DNA of 64,000 nt from contig NZ_JAJAVE010000001.1 of NCBI RefSeq assembly GCF_020532675.1, positions 1,860,001 through 1,924,000 of the forward strand. Reading direction: 5' to 3'. Position 1 is the first letter of the stretch, and the number at the start of each line of letters is the position of its first letter. Both the position numbers and the translations under genes were made by a program. Of the stretch, positions 3,193-35,142 are shown one piece after another. The notes beneath the pieces were generated by a model, which was not told where the DNA came from, did no database searches, and worked only from the letters and a program-made list of their open reading frames with translations. Origin of the DNA: Methylobacillus gramineus (lineage in GTDB: Bacteria > Pseudomonadota > Gammaproteobacteria > Burkholderiales > Methylophilaceae).

Positions 3193-3531
3193 TTACTCAT
3201 CCTGATCAAGACGATGGGCGCGATGTTCAATCCGCTGCGCCATGTCCATCAGCTTATGGCTGGCGGCATGTGCCACCTTTGCCCCGACATGCTTGACCGC
3301 ACGTTTACCAGCATTCTTGATCCGGCTGCTCGTATCATGCACCCTGATTGCCAAAGACTCTGCCATCAAACGCGCTCGCTCGCGAGAACTCAATTTAAAA
3401 TGCTTGGCGTATTCTGCCAGTGTCTGCTCCAGCTCTGCAGGAGACAGGTGATGCAGCTGCTCACGCCGCTTGGCATCCTCAACGGATGCCCTGACCCTAT
3501 GAATCAGTGGAAATGTGCTTTCACTCATCAT
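3193..3531 (-). CDS. Small basic helical protein of unknown function
   Basis: 112 residues, rich in Ala, His, Lys and Arg, predicted all-helical from composition (for example HLSPAELEQTLAEYAKHF, then a run of basic helix near 72-105). No signal peptide or membrane segment. I do not recognise a characterised family. It lies 26 bp upstream of the UbiB-like gene on the same strand, so a joint transcript is likely, and it could be a helper or a phasin-like/DNA-associated helical protein; that is only a guess from composition. Two adjacent ATG codons (MMSES) make the exact start uncertain by one residue. Confidence 0.7.
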   Translation of the reverse strand: MMSESTFPLIHRVRASVEDAKRREQLHHLSPAELEQTLAEYAKHFKLSSRERARLMAESLAIRVHDTSSRIKNAGKRAVKHVGAKVAHAASHKLMDMAQRIEHRAHRLDQDE

Positions 3532-3661
3532 GTCCTACCTTATTCCAGCGTTGATAAGCCATTCTACACCATCGTGTTCATGCCTCCAGAAGCAGTACTG
3601 GAGACAACAAAACACGATAAAAGGTTTACAAGAGTATTTTTTCCCTTTTAGAATGGGGCCG

Positions 3662-4207
3662 ATGATGACAATCCGAGCCCTGATCGCTACCCTGTTTTTG
3701 CTAGGCACCCAGCATGCTATGGCTGCGGATTCCGCTTACTCCTGGCAGCCTCAGCAGCAAAACAGTGAAGAGTCGGAAAAATCAGGCTGGTCAGATATTG
3801 CACAGGAAGTCCTGATCAGTGCACTCAGCCTGACCGGCATCAAATACACCTACGGTGGGAAATCTCCAGAAACAGGTTTTGATTGCAGTGGGTTTGTGCG
3901 CTATGTATTCCAGCAATCTGCCAGCATGACCTTGCCCCATGGCGCCAAGGCAATCAGCCAGATGGGACAGACCGTTTCAGCCGACCAGCTACAACCCGGT
4001 GACCTGGTATTTTTTAATACATTGAAATCTGCGTTTTCCCATGTGGGGATATATCTGGGTGACAATAAATTCATTCACGCCCCCAGTTCAGGCGGTGGCA
4101 TTCAAGTGGTGAATATGAAGGACAGCTATTGGTCCAAGCGCTTCAACGGTGCGCGCCGTATTGATAGCGACGATAAAAATGCAGTCAGCAGTCTCAACAA
4201 TAAATAA
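3662..4207 (+). CDS. NlpC/P60 family cell-wall peptidase, exported
   Basis: 181 residues from the chosen ATG. A signal peptide (MTIRALIATLFLLGTQHAMA) is followed by a short Gln/Ser-rich linker and an NlpC/P60 domain at about 50-160. The catalytic Cys75 sits in GFDCSGF, the catalytic His127 in SHVGIYLG and a third polar residue His139 in FIHAPSS. Family enzymes cut the D-Glu-meso-DAP bond in murein stem peptides. In-frame ATGs exist at 3653, 3662 and 3665; the GGGG just upstream favours 3662 or 3665, and longer versions would bury the signal peptide. It converges on the ZIP transporter with a shared hairpin between them. Confidence 0.9.
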   Translation: MMTIRALIATLFLLGTQHAMAADSAYSWQPQQQNSEESEKSGWSDIAQEVLISALSLTGIKYTYGGKSPETGFDCSGFVRYVFQQSASMTLPHGAKAISQMGQTVSADQLQPGDLVFFNTLKSAFSHVGIYLGDNKFIHAPSSGGGIQVVNMKDSYWSKRFNGARRIDSDDKNAVSSLNNK

Positions 4208-6440: not shown

Positions 6441-6460
6441 AATGAGAATAATTATTGTTT
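6441..6460. promoter_or_regulatory. Fur-box-like site upstream of orfX-sodA
   Basis: The stretch AATGAGAATAATTATTGTTT lies 23 bp before the ATG at 6418 and resembles the AT-rich GATAATGATAATCATTATC Fur consensus (GAGAATAATTATTG core). Placement in the promoter region fits iron repression. Confidence 0.6.
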
Positions 6461-6568
6461 ATTTCCAAACACAATACAACACCCGCAATAGAAATTGTTA
6501 TAGCCCGCCATTAATATGCATGAAAGTGATCTATTGCCTGAGACTTTATGCGCGCTTGTGTGAAGTCA

Positions 6569-7354
6569 TTACCGTACTTGCAAATCCTGCCTGGCAAACA
6601 GATTGCCCTGCACGCAGTCCACGCCCATGCGCCTGGCCCAGTCAAACGAAGCGCAAGTATCGACTTCACTCATGACTGTCTGTACCCCGATTTTACGAGC
6701 GGCACTGACCAGCCAATCCACTGTTGCCTGAGCAGCTTTGATATCCAGAGCCCGCAATGCCATGCTGCTGAATTTGATAATGCTGGCATCCATAAATGCA
6801 CTCAGTGAAAACATACCCCAGCTCACGCCGACATCTTCCAGTGCAACGGATGTGCCACATTGCTGCAACATGGAAATCATGCGTTGTGAGCGGTAAGCAT
6901 CTGCCACGCTCTTATGGTCGACAATATTGACGATTAACTCACGCTCAGACCAGGCGTGCTCCTTGAACAAGGCTAGAAAAGGATTCTGCATATCACCGCC
7001 GCCCATAAAGAAGCTATCAATATCCAGGTCCAGCATCAGCCAGCCGGTACCAGGAAACTGGGAGATCTGTAGCTTCTTCATTTCCATCTCGATGTGAAAC
7101 AGCAGCAAAGGATTCTTGTGCAGGCTTGCAAACATCTTGCCCGCATCGATGGCGTGATAGTCATGGGTCCAGAATCTGGATGAGGCCTGGTAACCCAGCA
7201 GCTCTCCAGACTGAACTTCGACTATAGGCTGGTAGTGCGCGCCGAAACGGCGCCCCAGAATAACATCCAATAACTCACTCGGCTGCAAATCTGCGGGCTC
7301 AACCTCATGTCCCAACATCAAGGCGCCGATTTCAGAACGGTTAAACGCATTCAT
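6569..7354 (-). CDS. Degenerate EAL-domain protein
   Basis: 261 residues, a single EAL-like domain without membrane segments or GGDEF domain. The fold-level order is recognisable (HYQPIVEVQSGELLGYQA near 40-57, LMLDLD 107-112, EDVG 173-176, KFSS 194-197, SEVDT 229-233, QGNLFAR 249-255). The signature residues are changed: EAL is QAS at 56-58, the DDFG metal loop is EDVG and the NxSP-like strand is LDLD. It is therefore probably not a c-di-GMP phosphodiesterase and may be a binding or protein-interaction module like YdiV. A Fur-box-like element lies upstream at about 7391-7410, suggesting iron control. Confidence 0.85.
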   Translation of the reverse strand: MNAFNRSEIGALMLGHEVEPADLQPSELLDVILGRRFGAHYQPIVEVQSGELLGYQASSRFWTHDYHAIDAGKMFASLHKNPLLLFHIEMEMKKLQISQFPGTGWLMLDLDIDSFFMGGGDMQNPFLALFKEHAWSERELIVNIVDHKSVADAYRSQRMISMLQQCGTSVALEDVGVSWGMFSLSAFMDASIIKFSSMALRALDIKAAQATVDWLVSAARKIGVQTVMSEVDTCASFDWARRMGVDCVQGNLFARQDLQVR

Positions 7355-7390
7355 TAAAAAATCCTCCAGTCATTTCCTCTAGGATTCATA

Positions 7391-7410
7391 ATAAATGATA
7401 ACGATTTACA
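7391..7410. promoter_or_regulatory. Possible Fur-box-like site upstream of the EAL gene
   Basis: ATAAATGATAACGATTTACA contains the ATGATAACGATT core, similar to Fur hexamer arrays, 37 bp before the EAL start codon. The match is weaker than at 6441 and 10531. Confidence 0.4.
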
Positions 7411-7457
7411 TTTAAAGAATTATTTCTGACTATTTTAGTCGGATATTATTTTGCCGC

Positions 7458-7745
7458 TTATTTCCGATCGCTGTGACCTAGATCCCGCTCCGGATCAATT
7501 TGATCCCTCACCAGCTGCTTCAGCTCTTTAGACTCAGGAAAACGCCCCTGCTCTTTACGCGAAAATAGCAGGCCCTTGTTCAGCCTGACCTCAAAAATAC
7601 CGCCAGTCCCAGGAACCAGACTCACGCGACCAATGTCTGATTCAAAAGTTGTCAACAACTCCTGCGCCATCCAGGCAGCACGCAACAACCACCGGCATTG
7701 CGTACAGTATTCGATTTCAAGCTCAGGTAAACCAGCCAGGCTCAT
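7458..7745 (-). CDS. SelT/SelW/SelH family (Rdx) thioredoxin-like protein
   Basis: 95 residues. The N-terminal strand is followed by the redox motif CTQC (Cys14, Cys17) and a WLLRAAWMAQELL helix, then VPGTGGIFEV and RFPESKELKQLVRD, which are the conserved blocks of bacterial SelW-like proteins in which Sec is replaced by Cys. The ATG at 7745 is chosen because GGAG stands eight bases before it; a GTG at 7754 has no usable site. Members are cytoplasmic thiol oxidoreductases of unclear partner. Confidence 0.85.
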   Translation of the reverse strand: MSLAGLPELEIEYCTQCRWLLRAAWMAQELLTTFESDIGRVSLVPGTGGIFEVRLNKGLLFSRKEQGRFPESKELKQLVRDQIDPERDLGHSDRK

Positions 7746-28140: not shown

Positions 28141-29403
28141 TTAACCGAGTACATCCGCCCAAATATTAGCGGCCCATATATCTGCATGAATGCCCTCTAC
28201 GATTGAAGATATAGCAGAAATACCTCCACCAGGGGCTGGGCGCATATCATGGTCTTTGGCATCATAGCGATAGACATTTGCAACGTGGACTGCCTGTTTG
28301 TCATCCACGAAGCTGTAGCAGGTATTGGCAAATACTGGCGCTGGATCAACAGCTTCCCCCGCAAGCTCGGCAATGATTGCACTGGCACACACCTTGGCCT
28401 GTGAAGTGGCTATGTGTGCTGACTTCGGCGTCATGGCATCCACAGCGTCTCCTAGCAAATGGATGCCAGGAATCTTCCCTGATGCGTAATTGAGGAAATT
28501 CACATCGCACCATGGTCTGGCATCACTGGCGAGCCCAGTTTCTAGCGTCAATCTACCGGCTGTTTGCGGCGGAATCAGGTTCAATACATCCAGCTTGTAA
28601 TTGCCGAAAGTAGTCGCGAGTCCCAAGGACGTGGTGTCCAGATTCTCAATGCCACTACTGGGCAGGTATTCCACAATATTTGGGTAAAGCTCGTGCCAGG
28701 CTCGTTCGAACAAAGGACGTTTTGAAGTAATCGCCGGATTTCCATCAAATACTAATAATTTCGCCCGGGGATTATGCTGTTTGAGATAGAAAGCAATCTG
28801 GCAGGCCCGCTCATAAGGGCCTGGGGGACACCGATATGGTACCTGTGGAATAGTGATCCCAACAATACCGCCATCAGGCAAAGTCCTGAGTTGGCCCTTG
28901 AGTAACAGGGTCTGCGGGCCTGCCTTCCAGGCATGAGGGATATGTGTTGCCTGTATTTCAGCATTCAACATTGGCAGCCTGCTGTAGTCGAAATCAATGC
29001 CGGTTGCCACAATAAGCCGGTCATAGCCAATACGCTCTTCATTGACATGCACCTCCTTCCGCTCAGGATCAATACGGCTTGCCTGACCTTTGATAACACT
29101 TACACCATAAAGGTCCCGTAATGTCTTATAAGAGTGCGTGATCGTGTTGATATCCGCAGCTCCTGCCAGGATGCGATTACTGACCGGGCATGAAATGAAT
29201 TCTGGCCGAAGCTCTATCAAGGTAACTTTTATCCGCCCTTCACTCCACATACGCAGATATCGCGCAGCAGTGGCTCCCCCAAAACCTGCGCCGATAATCA
29301 CAACATGTCCAAGAGAAGCATTAGAATTCGTAGCTGCAAGAGATGGCAACACCAACATACCAAGCCCAGCCATACCTGACTTAAGGAAAAGTCTCCTATT
29401 CAT
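28141..29403 (-). CDS. Flavocytochrome c sulfide dehydrogenase-type flavoprotein (FccB/SoxF-like)
   Basis: 420 residues. A Tat-type signal NRRLFLK opens the protein, followed by a Rossmann FAD motif VVIIGAGFGGATAARYL (34-50). Cys72 in FISCPVSN matches the position where FccB binds FAD covalently, and Cys192 (YRCPPGPYERA) and Cys339 (QAKVCASAI) match the redox-active disulfide of flavocytochrome c sulfide dehydrogenase. It should oxidise sulfide or sulfane sulfur in the periplasm and pass electrons to the cytochrome encoded immediately upstream, with which it overlaps by four bases. Confidence 0.9.
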   Translation of the reverse strand: MNRRLFLKSGMAGLGMLVLPSLAATNSNASLGHVVIIGAGFGGATAARYLRMWSEGRIKVTLIELRPEFISCPVSNRILAGAADINTITHSYKTLRDLYGVSVIKGQASRIDPERKEVHVNEERIGYDRLIVATGIDFDYSRLPMLNAEIQATHIPHAWKAGPQTLLLKGQLRTLPDGGIVGITIPQVPYRCPPGPYERACQIAFYLKQHNPRAKLLVFDGNPAITSKRPLFERAWHELYPNIVEYLPSSGIENLDTTSLGLATTFGNYKLDVLNLIPPQTAGRLTLETGLASDARPWCDVNFLNYASGKIPGIHLLGDAVDAMTPKSAHIATSQAKVCASAIIAELAGEAVDPAPVFANTCYSFVDDKQAVHVANVYRYDAKDHDMRPAPGGGISAISSIVEGIHADIWAANIWADVLG

Positions 29404-29768
29404 TCTGCTTGGTTCATTTCACGAAACGACTTCTTTTTTGCCACAGGACAGGCTCGACGTTGTTCTGAGAAATACTTGGCCAATTGCTGTATCTCTTCTT
29501 CAGAAAGACCTTTGGCATGCTGAACCATTACTGCATGCTCGTCTGCAGAATTACGGAATATCTGCATTTTCTTGATGAAATAGGCTTCATCAAGAGCGGC
29601 CAGACCTGGAATCGCAGCATGTTGGACCGTGCCATTTCCATGACATATCAAACAAGAGGAAGCAAGAGTTCTAGTGTGCGTGTTAGCCTCCATTGACACG
29701 GCATCCTGAGAACACACGCCAACAAAGATCATCAAGAAATGGGATAACACGGCTAGAACGTGCCTCAT
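29400..29768 (-). CDS. Monoheme cytochrome c, FccA/SoxE-like
   Basis: 122 residues, exported by an N-terminal signal (about 1-25). A single heme site CLICH lies at 39-43 and Met81 (AVMVQHAKGLS) is the probable sixth ligand, giving a small class I cytochrome. Its stop overlaps the flavoprotein start, as in fccAB, so it is the likely electron acceptor of that enzyme. It starts just 4 bp after the SoxYZ gene. Confidence 0.88.
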   Translation of the reverse strand: MRHVLAVLSHFLMIFVGVCSQDAVSMEANTHTRTLASSCLICHGNGTVQHAAIPGLAALDEAYFIKKMQIFRNSADEHAVMVQHAKGLSEEEIQQLAKYFSEQRRACPVAKKKSFREMNQAE

Positions 29769-29772
29769 GGCA

Positions 29773-30582
29773 TCAATTCACAACAACATCAGTAGTCGCG
29801 GTGAACTCCTTATCCTCATTATCTTGAATCACCACAGTAAGCTTGCCAGACTGATCGGCTTTAAATGGGAATTGAATATTGGGATCTTCGCTGACTCCGA
29901 TATACGTATCTGCATCAAACACTACCGTGTCATTGAACTTGGCAACGACCTTGCTGATGTAGAAGGCTGGGCGGTAGCCTTGTGATTCAAGATCACGTTG
30001 CAATCCAGTATTCATGGGATGTTTGATCAACAAATGTGCTTGCTTCAACTGCTCACTGCTTTCTGATTTCACCTGCAGCTTCATCTTGCCAGCAGTTTGC
30101 CGTGCAATATTTTCATCACCACCGATGGTTCCCCCACATCCGCCAGATGCCCGTATAGGCACCTGATTGACCAGATACTTTCCATCGCTGGTCTCAGCCA
30201 CGACATGTACAAATGAATCTACTTCCAGACGGATACGCGTTGATATTTCTGCCCTGCCAGAATTAGGATTGAAATGGTATACAGCCACCAATGGGACTGG
30301 ATTCGCATCTGCAATCACGGATACCGACTTGATGTAATGACTTTCTGTCATGGGGTAGTCGATACTGAAGGAAAACGGAACTTGCGCTCCACTCTCCGCG
30401 CGCTGGGGCGCTATGATTTTGATAGCGGCACTTTCTTCCAGCACAGCTTGGGGGAAGTAGTCTTTCTTCATCGCCTGCCAGTACTTCTCTTCAGCTTGGG
30501 CATGCGCAAAACCAGCGATGCCAATACAAGCAAGAAATGTTAAGACTAGAGTTCGACTTAAAACTTTATTGTGGTGCTTCAT
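29773..30582 (-). CDS. SoxYZ fusion carrier protein
   Basis: 269 residues, signal peptide ending AHA (28). The first half (about 35-155) is a SoxY domain ending in the swinging-arm motif GGCGG with Cys149, but the arm is internal here because a SoxZ domain (about 168-269, LLIKHPMNTGLQRD) is fused behind it. It fits the SoxYZ-like carrier proteins found beside quinoprotein dehydrogenases in methylotrophs. In Sox systems the cysteine carries the sulfur substrate; here the partners are FccAB-like, not SoxXA or SoxB. AGGAGG precedes the ATG; the promoter and operator lie at 30600-30643. Confidence 0.92.
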   Translation of the reverse strand: MKHHNKVLSRTLVLTFLACIGIAGFAHAQAEEKYWQAMKKDYFPQAVLEESAAIKIIAPQRAESGAQVPFSFSIDYPMTESHYIKSVSVIADANPVPLVAVYHFNPNSGRAEISTRIRLEVDSFVHVVAETSDGKYLVNQVPIRASGGCGGTIGGDENIARQTAGKMKLQVKSESSEQLKQAHLLIKHPMNTGLQRDLESQGYRPAFYISKVVAKFNDTVVFDADTYIGVSEDPNIQFPFKADQSGKLTVVIQDNEDKEFTATTDVVVN

Positions 30583-31471: not shown

Positions 31472-32113
31472 TTACCATCTTAAATAGCGATGTCCCATAT
31501 AGGCCATCATGGCACTGGGCACGATCATCCCGAGCACATACCACACAGCCAGGAATGGCGGCGCCATTTCTGGGCAATGCAAGGCGTACACACTGGCTCC
31601 AGCACTTCCGGCAAGCCATCCAGCAATGGCACCAGTCAACACCGGCTTGGTTGGTGCAAGATTACGCAAAGCTAATAATGCCGTAGCACCCACTGGCAAA
31701 GCTAGAAACGTGATATTCAAGATGCAAACCCGCCAGGTTTTACCCCATAACAATTCAAGACGTGCCGTTGGGTCTGTAGCATTCCAAGCCCAGAGAGCCC
31801 ACCCCCACAGCACCACGATTGGAATAGCCAGCACCCAATAGCCAAGCTTGGGTAATTTGCCGGGATGTGCCAAAGCGAACACAAATATAAATCCAATAAT
31901 GACATTGGCCAGAGGCACACCCAGTTTCATCCAGAAAGCAACACTGGTACTGATTTCTTTCAAATCAGGTCTGATGCCATAGATCATTAACAGCAATATG
32001 AAAGATATCACCACACCTGCCAGCAAAGCCATACTGATGCGTTTCTCGGCCGCATGTTGCGGGACTGGTTGTGCACCTGTTGAGAGTATATTGATCAATT
32101 CATCGGTTTTCAT
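31472..32113 (-). CDS. NrsF-type (DUF1109) anti-sigma factor
   Basis: 213 residues from the ATG at 32113, six membrane helices (first at about 29-48). It matches the DUF1109/NrsF family, inner-membrane anti-sigma factors of SigF-type ECF sigmas; conserved Cys residues (WRVCILN, ALHCPEMAPPF) sit in periplasmic-facing positions, consistent with metal or redox sensing known for Caulobacter NrsF. Its start overlaps the sigma stop by four bases, the usual sigma/anti-sigma coupling. Confidence 0.88.
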   Translation of the reverse strand: MKTDELINILSTGAQPVPQHAAEKRISMALLAGVVISFILLLMIYGIRPDLKEISTSVAFWMKLGVPLANVIIGFIFVFALAHPGKLPKLGYWVLAIPIVVLWGWALWAWNATDPTARLELLWGKTWRVCILNITFLALPVGATALLALRNLAPTKPVLTGAIAGWLAGSAGASVYALHCPEMAPPFLAVWYVLGMIVPSAMMAYMGHRYLRW

Positions 32114-32649
32114 GCTTGTTCCTTCCACATTTTTGCTAGTGCTTTCATGCCACGATGTACACCAACCTTAATCGCTGATACTGACATTCCCGTCATGGCT
32201 GCCGCCTCTGCAACTGACCTACCTTCCAACTTTGTATGTTGTATGGGTAAGCGTTGATGTGCTGGTAATGCATCAAGCATAGTCTCCAGGTCCCTCTTTG
32301 ACTCATTGGTGGCCTCACCGGAAACCGCCAGCCATTCGGCATCATCCTCAAAAGGATCATGCCGAGCTTCATGCCTGGATCGGCGACGTAAGTAGTCGAT
32401 CATTTTGTAACGTGCCACGGCATACAGCCATGGGGTCAATGGTTCATTTCTGCGATACGTATGAAGTTGGGTATGAATGGCCAGCAAAGTCTCCTGTAGC
32501 AAATCTTCCACTTCATCAGGAGCACTAGTAAGACGCCGCCTTAAATACGCTCTTAGCACTGAACTGACTCGCTGTAGAAAACACTGGTATGACTCAGCAT
32601 TGCCATCAAGGGCTCTCAACATCAAATTACGCAGTTCTTGTTCCATCAT
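32110..32649 (-). CDS. ECF sigma factor, SigF type
   Basis: 179 residues. Region 2 (about 20-92) has DEVEDLLQETLLAIHTQL and ARYKMIDYLRRRSR; region 4 (about 120-172) has KLEGRSVAEAAAMTGMSVSAIKVGVHRGMKAL. Coupling to an NrsF anti-sigma and the divergent metallophore operon fit the SigF group. The -10 element ends ten bases before the ATG, so the mRNA would have almost no leader, and no ribosome site is visible; a later start at residue 10 is possible but would clip region 2. Probably autoregulated. Confidence 0.92.
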   Translation of the reverse strand: MMEQELRNLMLRALDGNAESYQCFLQRVSSVLRAYLRRRLTSAPDEVEDLLQETLLAIHTQLHTYRRNEPLTPWLYAVARYKMIDYLRRRSRHEARHDPFEDDAEWLAVSGEATNESKRDLETMLDALPAHQRLPIQHTKLEGRSVAEAAAMTGMSVSAIKVGVHRGMKALAKMWKEQA

Positions 32650-32658
32650 GATCTAGAT

Positions 32659-32686
32659 AATTCGCTGGAGAAGGGATAAAGGTTAC
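32659..32686 (-). promoter_or_regulatory. SigF-type promoter of the sigma gene
   Basis: On the minus strand GTAACC (32681-32686), 16 bases, CGAATT (32659-32664). The same layout drives the divergent metallophore operon and resembles the GTAACC-N16-CGAA motif I recall for Caulobacter SigF. Confidence 0.8.
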
Positions 32687-32728
32687 AGATACGCATAGAA
32701 AAATATTTAATTATTTTTATGCCCAAGT

Positions 32729-32756
32729 GTAACCATGGGTTGGCCAACAGCGTATT
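32729..32756 (+). promoter_or_regulatory. SigF-type promoter of the metallophore operon
   Basis: GTAACC (32729-32734), exactly 16 bases, CGTATT (32751-32756). Expected transcription start near 32763, leaving a leader of about 65 bases before the precursor gene. Confidence 0.8.
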
Positions 32757-32828
32757 AGCAAGAGAACATTGCGAGTTTGCCTTACTACAGTGCTCACAAT
32801 GTATTTCAACCTAAATAGGAGCCTTACC

Positions 32829-33065
32829 ATGAACATCAAACACCTGGCTGCATTAGCCACCGCCATTATTGCCACGTCTACATTTGCTGGTAGCCCTGCA
32901 GAAAAGAAATGTAGTGCTGGCACATGCAGTAAAAAGGAAGTCTCTTCGGAGAAGAAAGATGCCTCATGTTCGAAAAAAGAGGCTTCCGCTGAGCAAAAGG
33001 ATGCCTCTTGCTCCAAGAAGGAAACCTCTTGCAGCAAAAAAGAAACTTCCTGCTCTAAGAAATAA
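32829..33065 (+). CDS. Cys-rich exported metallophore precursor with heptad repeats (bufferin-like)
   Basis: 78 residues. A signal peptide (MNIKHLAALATAIIATSTFA) is followed by a Lys/Ser/Cys core. From residue 33 the core is a tandem seven-residue repeat, CSKKExS, with Cys at 33, 47, 61, 68 and 75 and degenerate Cys-less units at 40 and 54; Cys28 lies before it. Codons differ between repeats, so the pattern is kept at protein level. Context (MNIO enzyme, DUF2063 partner, DoxX, SigF/NrsF) identifies it as the substrate peptide of a bufferin/Gig/Hvf-type metal-binding RiPP system. Its core does not look like the four-Cys DUF2282 or EGKCG cores. The start is set by the signal peptide. Confidence 0.8.
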   Translation: MNIKHLAALATAIIATSTFAGSPAEKKCSAGTCSKKEVSSEKKDASCSKKEASAEQKDASCSKKETSCSKKETSCSKK

Positions 33066-33075
33066 GGACTTTGCC

Positions 33076-33858
33076 ATGGCTGGACTGGGTTACCGAGGGG
33101 AAATGGCAGACTGGGATATGTCGGCAGTGGAGGCTGATTTTTTTGAAGTCGCGCCTGAAAACTGGATCAAGCGAGACAGATCACCACTCTACAAGTTATT
33201 GGACTCAGGTCGCCCAGTTATGCTGCATGGTGTATCACTAAGTCTTGGTGGACAGGCTCCCATTCAGCAGGAGTTTCTGATGGCCGTACGCGAACTGATG
33301 ACAGACCTTGGTACAGACTATTATTCTGATCATCTGGCAGCAAGCGGTGATGCCCATCAACTCTATGATTTATTCCCTATCCCATTTACTGATCGTGAGG
33401 TGATCCGCATCAGTGACCGCATCAAGGAAGTCCAGAATATATTGGGCCTCAGGATCGCCGTAGAAAATACCACCTACTACACCAATGTTGGAGAAATGAA
33501 TGAGGTGGAGTTCTTGATGCAAGTGGTTGAAAGAGCCGATTGCAACATATTGCTCGATATCAACAACATTGCCGTGAATCACAAGAATCATCATCTGACG
33601 AATGTGCATCACTTTGTATCCCATGTGGATATGCAGCGCGTCACTTATATTCACGTAGCGGGCCATGAGTTTGATGAGCGTTTTGGTTTGTATATTGATA
33701 CCCATAGCCAAACCGTGGAGACCGAAACCCGAGAGGTGGCACTTGAATTATTCCAGCAACATCACATCCCCATTTTGCTTGAGTGGGACAACGACATTCC
33801 AGCTCTTACCACCATCAATCAAGAATTATCATGCCTGAAGACTTTTATCTCTACGTAA
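33076..33858 (+). CDS. DUF692 multinuclear iron-dependent oxidase (MNIO, BufB/HvfB-like)
   Basis: 260 residues, a TIM-barrel. Candidate iron ligands are spread as in the family: Glu24, His51 (LHGVSLS), Asp85-His86 (YYSDHLA), Glu130 (VENTTYY), Asp161 and Asn164 (LLDINNIAVN), His193 and His197 (YIHVAGHE), His210 and Glu236 (LLEWDND). MNIO enzymes oxidise cysteines of precursor peptides to oxazolone/thioamide-type groups that bind copper or other metals. AAGGA seven bases before the ATG at 33076 fixes the start; it begins 10 bp after the precursor gene, with the stop 28 bp into the next gene. Confidence 0.92.
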   Translation: MAGLGYRGEMADWDMSAVEADFFEVAPENWIKRDRSPLYKLLDSGRPVMLHGVSLSLGGQAPIQQEFLMAVRELMTDLGTDYYSDHLAASGDAHQLYDLFPIPFTDREVIRISDRIKEVQNILGLRIAVENTTYYTNVGEMNEVEFLMQVVERADCNILLDINNIAVNHKNHHLTNVHHFVSHVDMQRVTYIHVAGHEFDERFGLYIDTHSQTVETETREVALELFQQHHIPILLEWDNDIPALTTINQELSCLKTFIST

Positions 33859-34115
33859 GAGGGGCGACTGAGGTCATTCCGCCCGGATACAGCGAATCCG
33901 GGATGCGGGCTTACCGCCACCTTGTAATGCTTGGAGCCTGTCAAATGATAGAAGCTCACTTCCCGGCCATCCGCCAGCAACTGGGGGAGCCTGCATGGAA
34001 AGAGTTAATACAGGCATTCGTTCGCCAGTCTGCCTGGACATCACATTATTATGGAGATCTTAAAGATGAATTCCTGGCATTCCTTGCACGTGAAAGCGAT
34101 AGAGAAGATACATGA
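33831..34115 (+). CDS. Short DUF2063 domain protein (BufC/HvfC-like partner)
   Basis: 94 residues from the ATG at 33831. GMRAYRHLVMLGACQMIEAHFP, QLGEPAWKELIQAFVRQ and YGDLKDEFLAFLA match the N-terminal DUF2063 domain that binds the precursor and helps MNIO enzymes. Normal partners are about 250 residues with a second C-terminal domain, which is absent here. The frame ends cleanly and the next gene overlaps by 50 bp, so this looks like a genuine short form. It overlaps the MNIO gene by 28 bp, implying translational coupling. Confidence 0.82.
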   Translation: MPEDFYLYVRGATEVIPPGYSESGMRAYRHLVMLGACQMIEAHFPAIRQQLGEPAWKELIQAFVRQSAWTSHYYGDLKDEFLAFLARESDREDT

Positions 34116-34569
34116 TCTTGGGTTACTCGGACTCAGGTTATGGGTTGCTCAAGAGTTTCTAGGGGCGGGATATAAAAAACTGAGTGGCGGGATTCATGCG
34201 CCAGAATGGTTCAGTGGCCTGCAGTTTCCCTTTCCGCTACATTTTCTTGGCCCAGATCTGAATTGGGTGGCTGCAGGGTTGGGAGAAGTCTTATTGGGAG
34301 CGGCTCTAATGCTGGGCATATACAGCCGATTAGTAGCTCTAGGATTGTTGTACATTACCTTTGTAGCGATATATACCGTCCATTTTGATTTAGGCTGGAC
34401 CGGGTGGAACCAGATTGATACAGAGGCAGGCCTCGGGTTCAAAGTCCCGCTGATGCTGGCTTTAATGTTATTTACGATCTTAACTCAGGGAAGTGGGCGC
34501 TATAGTATTGACGAAAGATTTTTATCAACTAAAAAATCTTTGAATGGGCTAGATAGAGCAAATAACTAA
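34066..34569 (+). CDS. DoxX family membrane protein
   Basis: 167 residues, four membrane helices (about 15-35, 60-85, 90-110, 125-145). KIHDLGLLGLRLWVAQEFLGAGYKKL is the DoxX opening. DoxX proteins close many bufferin/gig/hvf operons (GigT/HvfD position), possibly as a redox or transport partner. GGAG nine bases upstream supports the ATG at 34066 inside the previous gene. Last gene of the operon. Confidence 0.88.
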   Translation: MNSWHSLHVKAIEKIHDLGLLGLRLWVAQEFLGAGYKKLSGGIHAPEWFSGLQFPFPLHFLGPDLNWVAAGLGEVLLGAALMLGIYSRLVALGLLYITFVAIYTVHFDLGWTGWNQIDTEAGLGFKVPLMLALMLFTILTQGSGRYSIDERFLSTKKSLNGLDRANN

Positions 34570-34824: not shown

Positions 34825-35142
34825 CTAATTCTTCCGATATTTTGCTTCGAACTGGCTTGTTAAAATATCTGATGCAGGCGGAGTTTTTGTCACATCATCT
34901 CTAGTTGCTGGAGTTACACGAGCATTTCTATCCAGCACTGCGTCATAAAATAGATCCAAAGATTTGTCGACATCTGGCTTATCGTTAGATTTTGCGGTGG
35001 CTTCAGGCTCCCAATGTCCCAGCACAGTCCTTTCAATAAAAACATTCTTGGATTGATCGACGTTAGCACTGTCTGCAAGCGCACTACCTACAGAAGCAAT
35101 ACCGATAATTAGGCTACTAAGAATGGCAACTTTGGTCTTCAT
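34825..35142 (-). CDS. Small exported hypothetical protein
   Basis: 105 residues, signal peptide ending SALA (23). The mature part is hydrophilic with no Cys (SKNVFIERTVLGHW, DKSLDLFYDAVLDRN). Not recognised. It is divergent from the TetR gene at 35304 with two similar palindromic elements between them, so it is probably the regulated target. A good terminator follows. Confidence 0.75.
   Translation of the reverse strand: MKTKVAILSSLIIGIASVGSALADSANVDQSKNVFIERTVLGHWEPEATAKSNDKPDVDKSLDLFYDAVLDRNARVTPATRDDVTKTPPASDILTSQFEAKYRKN

Follow-up and report, generated by a model that had tools for sequence, protein, structure and literature searches.

Two kinds of described gene cluster come closest to the locus treated here. 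In Buf1 operons, such as Caulobacter CC3254-CC3257, a precursor peptide of the DUF2282 family with four fixed cysteines (Cys) is followed by genes for an MNIO enzyme, a DUF2063 partner and a DoxX protein, in that order; the captophorin, Buf_EGKCG and oxazolin systems (FonABC, HvfABC-X) couple an exported repeat peptide, in which a small residue follows Cys, to an MNIO, a DUF2063 partner and a DoxX protein (HvfX). A preprint of July 2026 (PMC13419390) presents PME proteins as fusions of DUF2063 with a complete or partial RRE, and ascribes to HvfC both an inferred substrate-binding role and a role enabling the mixed-valent diiron cofactor. In a 64,000-nucleotide stretch of the Methylobacillus gramineus genome (hereafter the window), an earlier note had pointed to an exported 78-residue peptide followed by MNIO, DUF2063 and DoxX genes and divergent from a pair encoding an extracytoplasmic function (ECF) sigma factor and NrsF. 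This layout is borne out by the gene frames and, for the protein families, by Pfam, since the MNIO, DUF2063, DoxX, ECF and NrsF genes all score above curated cut-offs, with the four operon genes on the plus strand and the ECF/NrsF pair on the minus strand. The locus, designated CSKK type (a name coined in this analysis for its clade), is probably a metallophore operon of the ribosomally synthesised and post-translationally modified peptide (RiPP) kind, belonging to a distinct MNIO clade and combining sigma-F/NrsF control with a modification system devoid of an RRE.

To delimit the clade, the genomes of 84,980 species were scanned for two short peptide patterns drawn on an MNIO alignment, which gave 33 loci at 57-82% MNIO identity and seven at 36-41%, 40 altogether; because only two short patterns were sought, the 33 are to be taken as a minimum. 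Adding L001, L072 and L073 brings the clade to 36 loci, although the L072 protein is identical to that of L046. Between the clade and other MNIOs no identity value between 47% and 57% was met. In the family search the match following 79% stood at 44%; in the genus, two of five other genomes had a close homologue and three had no MNIO match; in an order sample, 3 of 399 genomes (source included) had a match of at least 60%, the next among the matches listed being 46%; and in a phylum sample of 398 genomes none of the matches listed, except the source's own, exceeded 47%. The 353 plasmid records with an MNIO match all remained below 60% identity. Taxonomy labels of the 33 scan loci were beta-proteobacterial in 27 cases, the rest being metagenome-assembled genomes labelled only Proteobacteria (4) or Moraxellaceae or Pseudomonadales (2).

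A maximum-likelihood tree of 113 MNIOs, which left out L072 and the too short L066, separated the 35 distinct CSKK members with 100/100 support and a stem branch 1.9 changes per site long, next to 58 EGKCG-linked MNIOs (89/84) and 20 DUF2282-linked MNIOs (100/100), the latter all taken from a single order. No inference is drawn on the deep branching order, given the program's warning about two long branches, those of CSKK and DUF2282, joining each other. The EGKCG label was assigned to 59 comparison loci by MNIO similarity, and GKCG was seen at 54 of them; an EGKCG-type precursor was found for 55 of the 59, none being seen in the scanned stretch of L065, L085 and L092, and L066 was kept outside this count for its short MNIO frame, though its EGKCG precursor is visible. 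Twenty-six positions were diagnostic of the CSKK MNIOs, among them W13, R33, A88-A89 after H86, and H94-Q95. Judged from these comparisons, the CSKK MNIOs and their precursors appear to form a discrete family, found mainly in beta-proteobacteria.

What seems to be the most unusual feature of the locus went unremarked in the earlier note, namely that the DUF2063 partner carries no RRE domain. Measured from where the DUF2063 domain begins up to the stop codon, this partner spans 86-97 amino acids at all 36 CSKK loci, against 216-289 at 58 of 59 EGKCG loci and 220-274 at 20/20 DUF2282 loci; likewise, the window's partner has 94 residues and Caulobacter CC3256 has 254. A profile for RRE sequence was built from one half of the long partners; it matched 30/30 EGKCG and 8/10 DUF2282 loci kept out of training, but none of the 36 CSKK loci within locus stretches of 3.8-10.8 kb each. 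Of 369 genomes sampled across the class, 90 had a DUF2063 match, and among the matches listed all but the source's lay in frames of at least 254 amino acids. The source genome itself holds a single MNIO, a single such precursor and a single DUF2063 match at E <= 0.001, so that a second partner is not in evidence, and neither a second partner nor a second MNIO was found in it at this cut-off. A 97-residue partner at L024 was considered as an RRE-less case among EGKCG loci and rejected: RRE-like sequence continues in another frame and the RRE profile matches the locus, which therefore looks frameshifted.

The short partner (here called mini-PME) is well conserved, with 22 invariant columns over 35 sequences, and was modelled with a pLDDT of 91. 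With Foldseek, no PDB structure was matched at E <= 0.001 (MbnC E 1.5, 3dee E 1.9), and a second structural comparison aligned the model with the first domain of MbnC (7dz9_C; Z 7.8 over 83 residues) and with that of 3dee (NGO1945; Z 6.3 over 69 residues), a likeness that is modest for helical folds; the further, RRE-type part of both these partners is absent in the mini-PME. In the passages of the MNIO literature that were consulted, no description of a DUF2063-only clade was found, and type 1 partners are given as DUF2063 plus RRE. A literature search for CSKK-type sequences listed only papers whose titles suggest no relation to the subject.

The RRE and a leader motif are missing together across the CSKK clade. 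In EGKCG precursors, an NPF...GY motif sits between the signal peptide and the core, and a pattern search recovered it in 44 of 55 of them, against 0 of 33 CSKK precursors. In Microbulbifer MmrC the RRE was modelled engaging a conserved leader (PMC12538549), HvfBC is reported to favour the precursor with its signal peptide (PMC13419390), and bufferin enzymes seem to do likewise (PMC12452194). Recognition in CSKK systems cannot use a locus-encoded RRE, since there is none at the locus, and, because both the RRE and the leader motif are missing, the signal peptide and the core are the likely recognition elements.

The MNIO of the window matches PF05114 with 247.6 bits against a cut-off of 25, and its residues H51, H86, E130, D161, N164, H193, D208, H210, E236 and D238 are invariant in 113/113 aligned MNIOs. 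These are presumed to be the metal and catalytic sites. The structural model (pLDDT 89) found 3bww as best PDB match (E 1.6e-21) and also matched the folds of TglH and MbnB. Mapped by motif, D238 takes the place of the catalytic base D249 of FonB (PMC13097082). Relative to the homologue of M. rhizosphaerae, the enzyme shows a nonsynonymous divergence (dN) of 0.13 with saturated synonymous divergence (dS), which indicates strong constraint. This observation bears on the proposal that the peptide acts unmodified, as a periplasmic metallothionein-like protein or a sacrificial thiol, the MNIO complex being degenerated or acting elsewhere. The absence of the RRE would fit such a state, metal binding or the scavenging of oxidants would be within reach of a Cys/Lys-rich peptide on its own, and at L032 (Methylophilus rhizosphaerae, 6449-7723) an MsrA-thioredoxin-MsrB fusion frame overlaps the end of DoxX, hinting at oxidant stress; but the conserved site residues, the constraint on the enzyme, the conserved columns of the mini-PME and the co-occurrence of MNIO and precursor at all 34 distinct loci with upstream DNA make this proposal distinctly unlikely.

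A peptide that is modified by its MNIO is the reading pursued here, and some hints on the chemistry come from FonB, in which Arg15, Arg16 and Phe250 were described as substrate-gating sites (PMC13097082). With the sites mapped by motif, the Arg15 equivalent is kept in 35/35 CSKK MNIOs and that of Arg16 in 28/35 (Gly in the window), and the Phe250 equivalent is Asn in 33/35 and His in 2/35. The last site separates the clade only in part, because Asn also occurs in 8/58 EGKCG and 5/20 DUF2282 rows, and Phe is found in only 32/58 EGKCG rows. The same study reported that FonBC tolerates only small residues after Cys; since CSKK and CGKK meet this demand, a 5-thiooxazole product is plausible by analogy.

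The precursor of the window consists of a signal peptide, MNIKHLAALATAIIATSTFA, and a mature part, GSPAEKKCSAGTCSKKEVSSEKKDASCSKKEASAEQKDASCSKKETSCSKKETSCSKK, the cleavage site being placed by eye. The Sec signal peptide covers approximately residues 1-20 and is followed by the conserved segment EKKCSAGTCSKKE, after which SCSKKE repeats run to the C-terminus; the mature part contains 15 Lys. The earlier note had listed Cys at 33, 47, 61, 68 and 75, spaced in multiples of seven. These positions are right; Cys28 had been missed, and the spacings of the six Cys are 5 (CSAGTC), 14, 14, 7 and 7, the first of which is not a multiple of seven. At the protein level the five CSKK units do not differ, but their Ser codons are AGT, TCG, TCC, AGC and TCT, and the mean DNA identity of the units is 0.70, against 0.74 expected for random synonymous codons (5-95% range 0.68-0.82). 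Codon differences as large as chance rule out that the units owe their identity to a recent duplication of the DNA; an array is still visible in the DNA at 32997-33061, with a 21-base period, 3.1 copies and 72% matches. Because identical units use synonymous codons that differ by as much as chance, and because dN against Methylobacillus rhizosphaerae is 0.088 with saturated dS, the precursor repeats are under selection at the protein level.

Among the 36 clade loci, leaving out L041 (without upstream DNA) and one duplicate (L072, equal to L046), a single precursor type was found at 34/34 distinct loci, 33 times intact and once frameshifted, so that, under the refutation rule of the earlier note, the family holds up and its strict Cys heptads do not. 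The frameshifted case is L035, from the draft genome of Methylobacillus glycogenes JCM 2850, in which both the precursor and the ECF genes appear disrupted (3216-4180), either by assembly errors or by decay of the operon. The 33 intact precursors share a plan of signal peptide, KC[GS]AG[TS]C[GS]KK and [SAG]C[SGA]KK[DE] repeats, have 63-121 amino acids and 4-10 Cys, and yield mature peptides of net charge +4 to +12, in agreement with the positive charge that had been claimed. CxxxxCxKK is present near the mature start in 31/33, the exceptions being L055 (an Azonexus) and L073, which have CxxxxxC; Ser, Gly or Ala follows Cys in 213/221 cases, and a CxKK unit occurs at 177/221 Cys. The evenly spaced heptad array, put forward as the defining trait, was not upheld: intervals of exactly seven account for 93/188 overall, and 103/155 intervals after the first are multiples of seven, but only 3/33 intact precursors keep to such multiples in every interval after the first, so strict heptad spacing is ruled out as a conserved trait. 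The repeat unit thus appears to be [SAG]C[SGA]KK[DE] with a loose, not strict, seven-residue pitch. In addition, at L058 and L061 (Comamonas), the two such loci inspected, a further gene separates precursor and MNIO; its product has an apparent signal peptide, and that of L058 matches DUF4148. A gap of similar size separates precursor and MNIO at L059 and L063.

The suggestion that the precursor differs from known families held. The window precursor hit 0 Pfam families at E <= 1, none of the 29 members searched matched a Pfam or NCBIfam model over its cut-off or DUF2282 at all, no Buf2-named match arose in the NCBIfam searches (the Cys number, moreover, varies from 4 to 10), and the 33 precursors contain no EGKCG-type repeats. 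The best library match among the 29 was the CsgA repeat model (E 0.0028; three members at E <= 1), taken as a composition effect. It might still be argued that the locus is an ordinary Buf1 or EGKCG-type operon with a drifted precursor, for the core genes are common to all three, Buf1 biosynthetic gene clusters (BGCs) contain sigma factor and NrsF genes (PMC12452194), and EWD is found at the catalytic base in 9/20 DUF2282 MNIOs as well. This is highly improbable: a Lys/Cys repeat without DUF2282 replaces the four fixed Cys of Buf1, the MNIOs form a clade of their own with 26 diagnostic positions across the identity gap, so that the tree contradicts drift from either type, and the partner architecture differs at 36/36 loci. 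With respect to captophorins, the motif is CSKK instead of EGKCG, and the catalytic base lies in EWD, not ERD. By sequence comparison, then, the locus appears to be built like bufferin and captophorin operons while departing from Buf1 in DUF2282 and clade and from EGKCG systems in motif, clade and partner. As a separate observation, upstream of a DUF2282-linked MNIO (L108, genome G222) the DUF2282-type precursor has a neighbour, another small peptide that shows NPCAAKNPCA repeats and an apparent signal peptide and is possibly a further Cys-repeat substrate.

A different question is whether the precursor family has already been catalogued, as the 'CxxxxC' or 'adjamnio-3' family of Antoine et al. 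2025 (PMC12452194), which would be compatible with the reading of a distinct MNIO system. This could well be the case, though it falls somewhat short of an even chance. The CxxxxC motif is shared with the family of that name, being kept in 31/33 CSKK precursors, and adjamnio-3 peptides are described in the main text as having Sec signal peptides, a predicted unstructured chain, a small separate MNIO cluster and bufferin-like BGCs. On the other hand, 54% of CxxxxC BGCs are stated to contain Lactamase_B_2 genes, and a crude motif scan of 35 CSKK loci gave four raw matches, none shown adjoining the operon: those at L050 and L064 lie in the wrong frame over the precursor, and those at L044 and L060 over 1 kb upstream of the MNIO gene. 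A search with PF12706 gave many matches at the level of whole genomes. Type 1 partners in that study form a narrow, full-length size range, and the parts of it consulted do not mention a DUF2063-only clade. The traits of adjamnio-3 given in its main text are compatible with those of the CSKK peptides.

In Caulobacter, the sigma-F site is GTAACC-N16-CGAA and changing two NrsF Cys disturbs control (PMC3511200). The same site form and the ECF/NrsF pair are common to Caulobacter Buf1 and the window, with CGTA on the operon side, and NrsF Cys130 and Cys180 lie close to C131 and C181 of Caulobacter NrsF. Only 0.06 matches to the sigma-F pattern are expected in the 64-kb window, and both that were found lie in the ECF-precursor intergenic region. 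A sigma-F-form site (CGTA or CGAA) stands upstream of the precursor at 7/7 NrsF-type loci and another faces the ECF/NrsF genes at 7/7, one of the latter sites reading GTAACT and one having a spacing of 15, not 16. The SigF/NrsF link that had been proposed is supported, with promoters of this form in both directions and two NrsF Cys.

The NrsF arrangement is one of two. Among the 36 loci (a count that includes L151, a copy of L046), 7 have it, in 22 DoxX is followed by another kind of ECF factor, and 7 show neither in the stretch covered. At 22/22 loci of the second type, a small frame with H-x3-C-x2-C, presumably the pattern of zinc anti-sigma factors, overlaps the end of the ECF gene; it encodes a putative zinc/thiol anti-sigma factor, and two such frames searched in Pfam gave no match over the cut-off. 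TGTCAGG-N15/16-CGAC occurs upstream of the precursor at 21/21 second-ECF loci, 4/6 loci with neither factor and 0/6 NrsF-type loci, and GTAACC at 6/6 NrsF-type loci and 0/27 other loci; in the remaining 316 kb of plus strand from these loci, the counts of the N16 forms were 0 and 1. These counts are not independent trials, because the TGTCAGG form was discovered in the same second-ECF loci (against five simple shuffles) in which it was then counted, and because the loci are related. Regulator type and promoter type nevertheless go together, placing one operon type under two different ECF circuits, each with a matching promoter.

Such regulators also touch on the proposal that a metal other than copper is bound and that, in place of a 5-thiooxazole, the enzyme makes a different Cys-derived ligand used against Zn, Cd, Au or HOCl stress. 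Caulobacter sigma-F responds to Cr and Cd (PMC3511200), the second circuit would involve a zinc/thiol anti-sigma factor, and most CSKK MNIOs have Asn at the Phe250 site. That site is, however, also variable in DUF2282 MNIOs, and Caulobacter Buf1 has thiooxazoles (PMC12452194). The proposal is held to be unlikely.

For the distinct RiPP metallophore operon favoured here, the following course may be envisaged. Envelope or thiol stress, probably caused by metal, would be sensed through the two conserved NrsF Cys; the ECF factor would be freed and both divergent promoters would fire, as the sites in the sequence and the induction known from Caulobacter suggest. The cytoplasmic MNIO, held and activated by the DUF2063-only partner, would oxidise the precursor Cys, most likely to 5-thiooxazoles as related enzymes do, having recognised its substrate most likely by the conserved signal peptide, the CSAGTCSKK start and the repeated SCSKK unit. 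Once exported by Sec, the peptide would serve as a periplasmic buffer for a soft metal, for instance Cu, with DoxX acting at the membrane.

Several points weigh against this reading. The motif next to the catalytic base is EWDN in CSKK MNIOs and ERD in EGKCG rows; it thus differs from that of the characterised Lys-Cys enzymes, and the chemistry may therefore differ. Substrates in which a charged residue immediately follows Cys were not turned over by FonBC (PMC13097082), and in CSKK, where Ser occupies this place, a Lys follows one position further. FonBC also needed no single position before the core for RRE engagement, so that the lost leader motif may matter less, and recognition is known to depend on the signal peptide only in RRE-bearing relatives. 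The search with the RRE profile covered locus stretches of 3.8-10.8 kb each. Finally, the whole genome contains five exact sigma-F matches, two of them at the locus, against 27 for the reversed pattern; the pattern by itself is thus not enriched genome-wide, and the weight of the sites rests on their position and conservation.

The features of the locus are collected in Table 1. The DUF2063 start lies within the MNIO gene and the DoxX start within the DUF2063 gene, and DoxX was seen at 31/36 clade loci, one of the five misses being due to a contig end that cuts the locus.

Table 1. Genes and candidate promoters of the CSKK-type locus (window coordinates)
Feature	Position	Strand	Evidence
NrsF anti-sigma factor, 213 aa	31472-32113	-	PF06532 E 1.4e-62; Cys130, Cys180
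ECF sigma factor, 179 aa	32110-32649	-	PF04542 + PF08281
Candidate sigma-F-type promoter GTAACC-N16-CGAA, toward ECF/NrsF genes	32661-32686	-	sequence pattern
Candidate sigma-F-type promoter GTAACC-N16-CGTA, toward precursor operon	32729-32754	+	sequence pattern
Precursor peptide, 78 aa	32829-33065	+	homologues at 33 further distinct loci
MNIO enzyme (MbnB_TglH_ChrH, formerly DUF692), 260 aa	33076-33858	+	PF05114 E 1.7e-73
DUF2063-only MNIO partner (mini-PME), 94 aa, without RRE	33831-34115	+	PF09836 51.9 bits vs cut-off 27.2
DoxX/HvfX-family membrane protein, 167 aa from given start	34066-34569	+	PF07681 E 6.3e-16; NF050144 86.0 bits vs cut-off 80

Near the operon, the minus strand at 28141-30582 encodes a flavoprotein like that of flavocytochrome c sulfide dehydrogenase, a weakly matched c-type cytochrome and a fused SoxYZ-like carrier (TIGR04557, over cut-off), adjoined by a TetR regulator, possibly a sulfur-handling cassette next to the thiol-peptide system. 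Just downstream, at 34825-35142 on the minus strand, lies a gene for a 105-residue protein with an apparent signal peptide and no Pfam or NCBIfam match over cut-off.

Taken further, and more tentatively than the operon assignment itself, the clade may represent an MNIO peptide class that matures without an RRE, in which a bare DUF2063 would activate the iron enzyme and the substrate would be recognised by its own signal peptide and SCSKK core. The RRE and leader would have been lost as if in one ancestor, the regulator (sigma-F/NrsF or another ECF factor with a zinc-type anti-sigma factor) would have been swapped together with the promoter, and the product might differ from bufferins in its Cys-derived ligand or in the metal that it serves; this wider picture is possible, and has slightly less than an even claim to be right. 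In the CSKK clade the two roles of HvfC seem to have come apart naturally, with DUF2063 kept and the RRE absent in every member seen, whereby the role of DUF2063 alone for an MNIO becomes directly testable, and the system would offer a small, repeat-coded route to designed metal-binding arrays.

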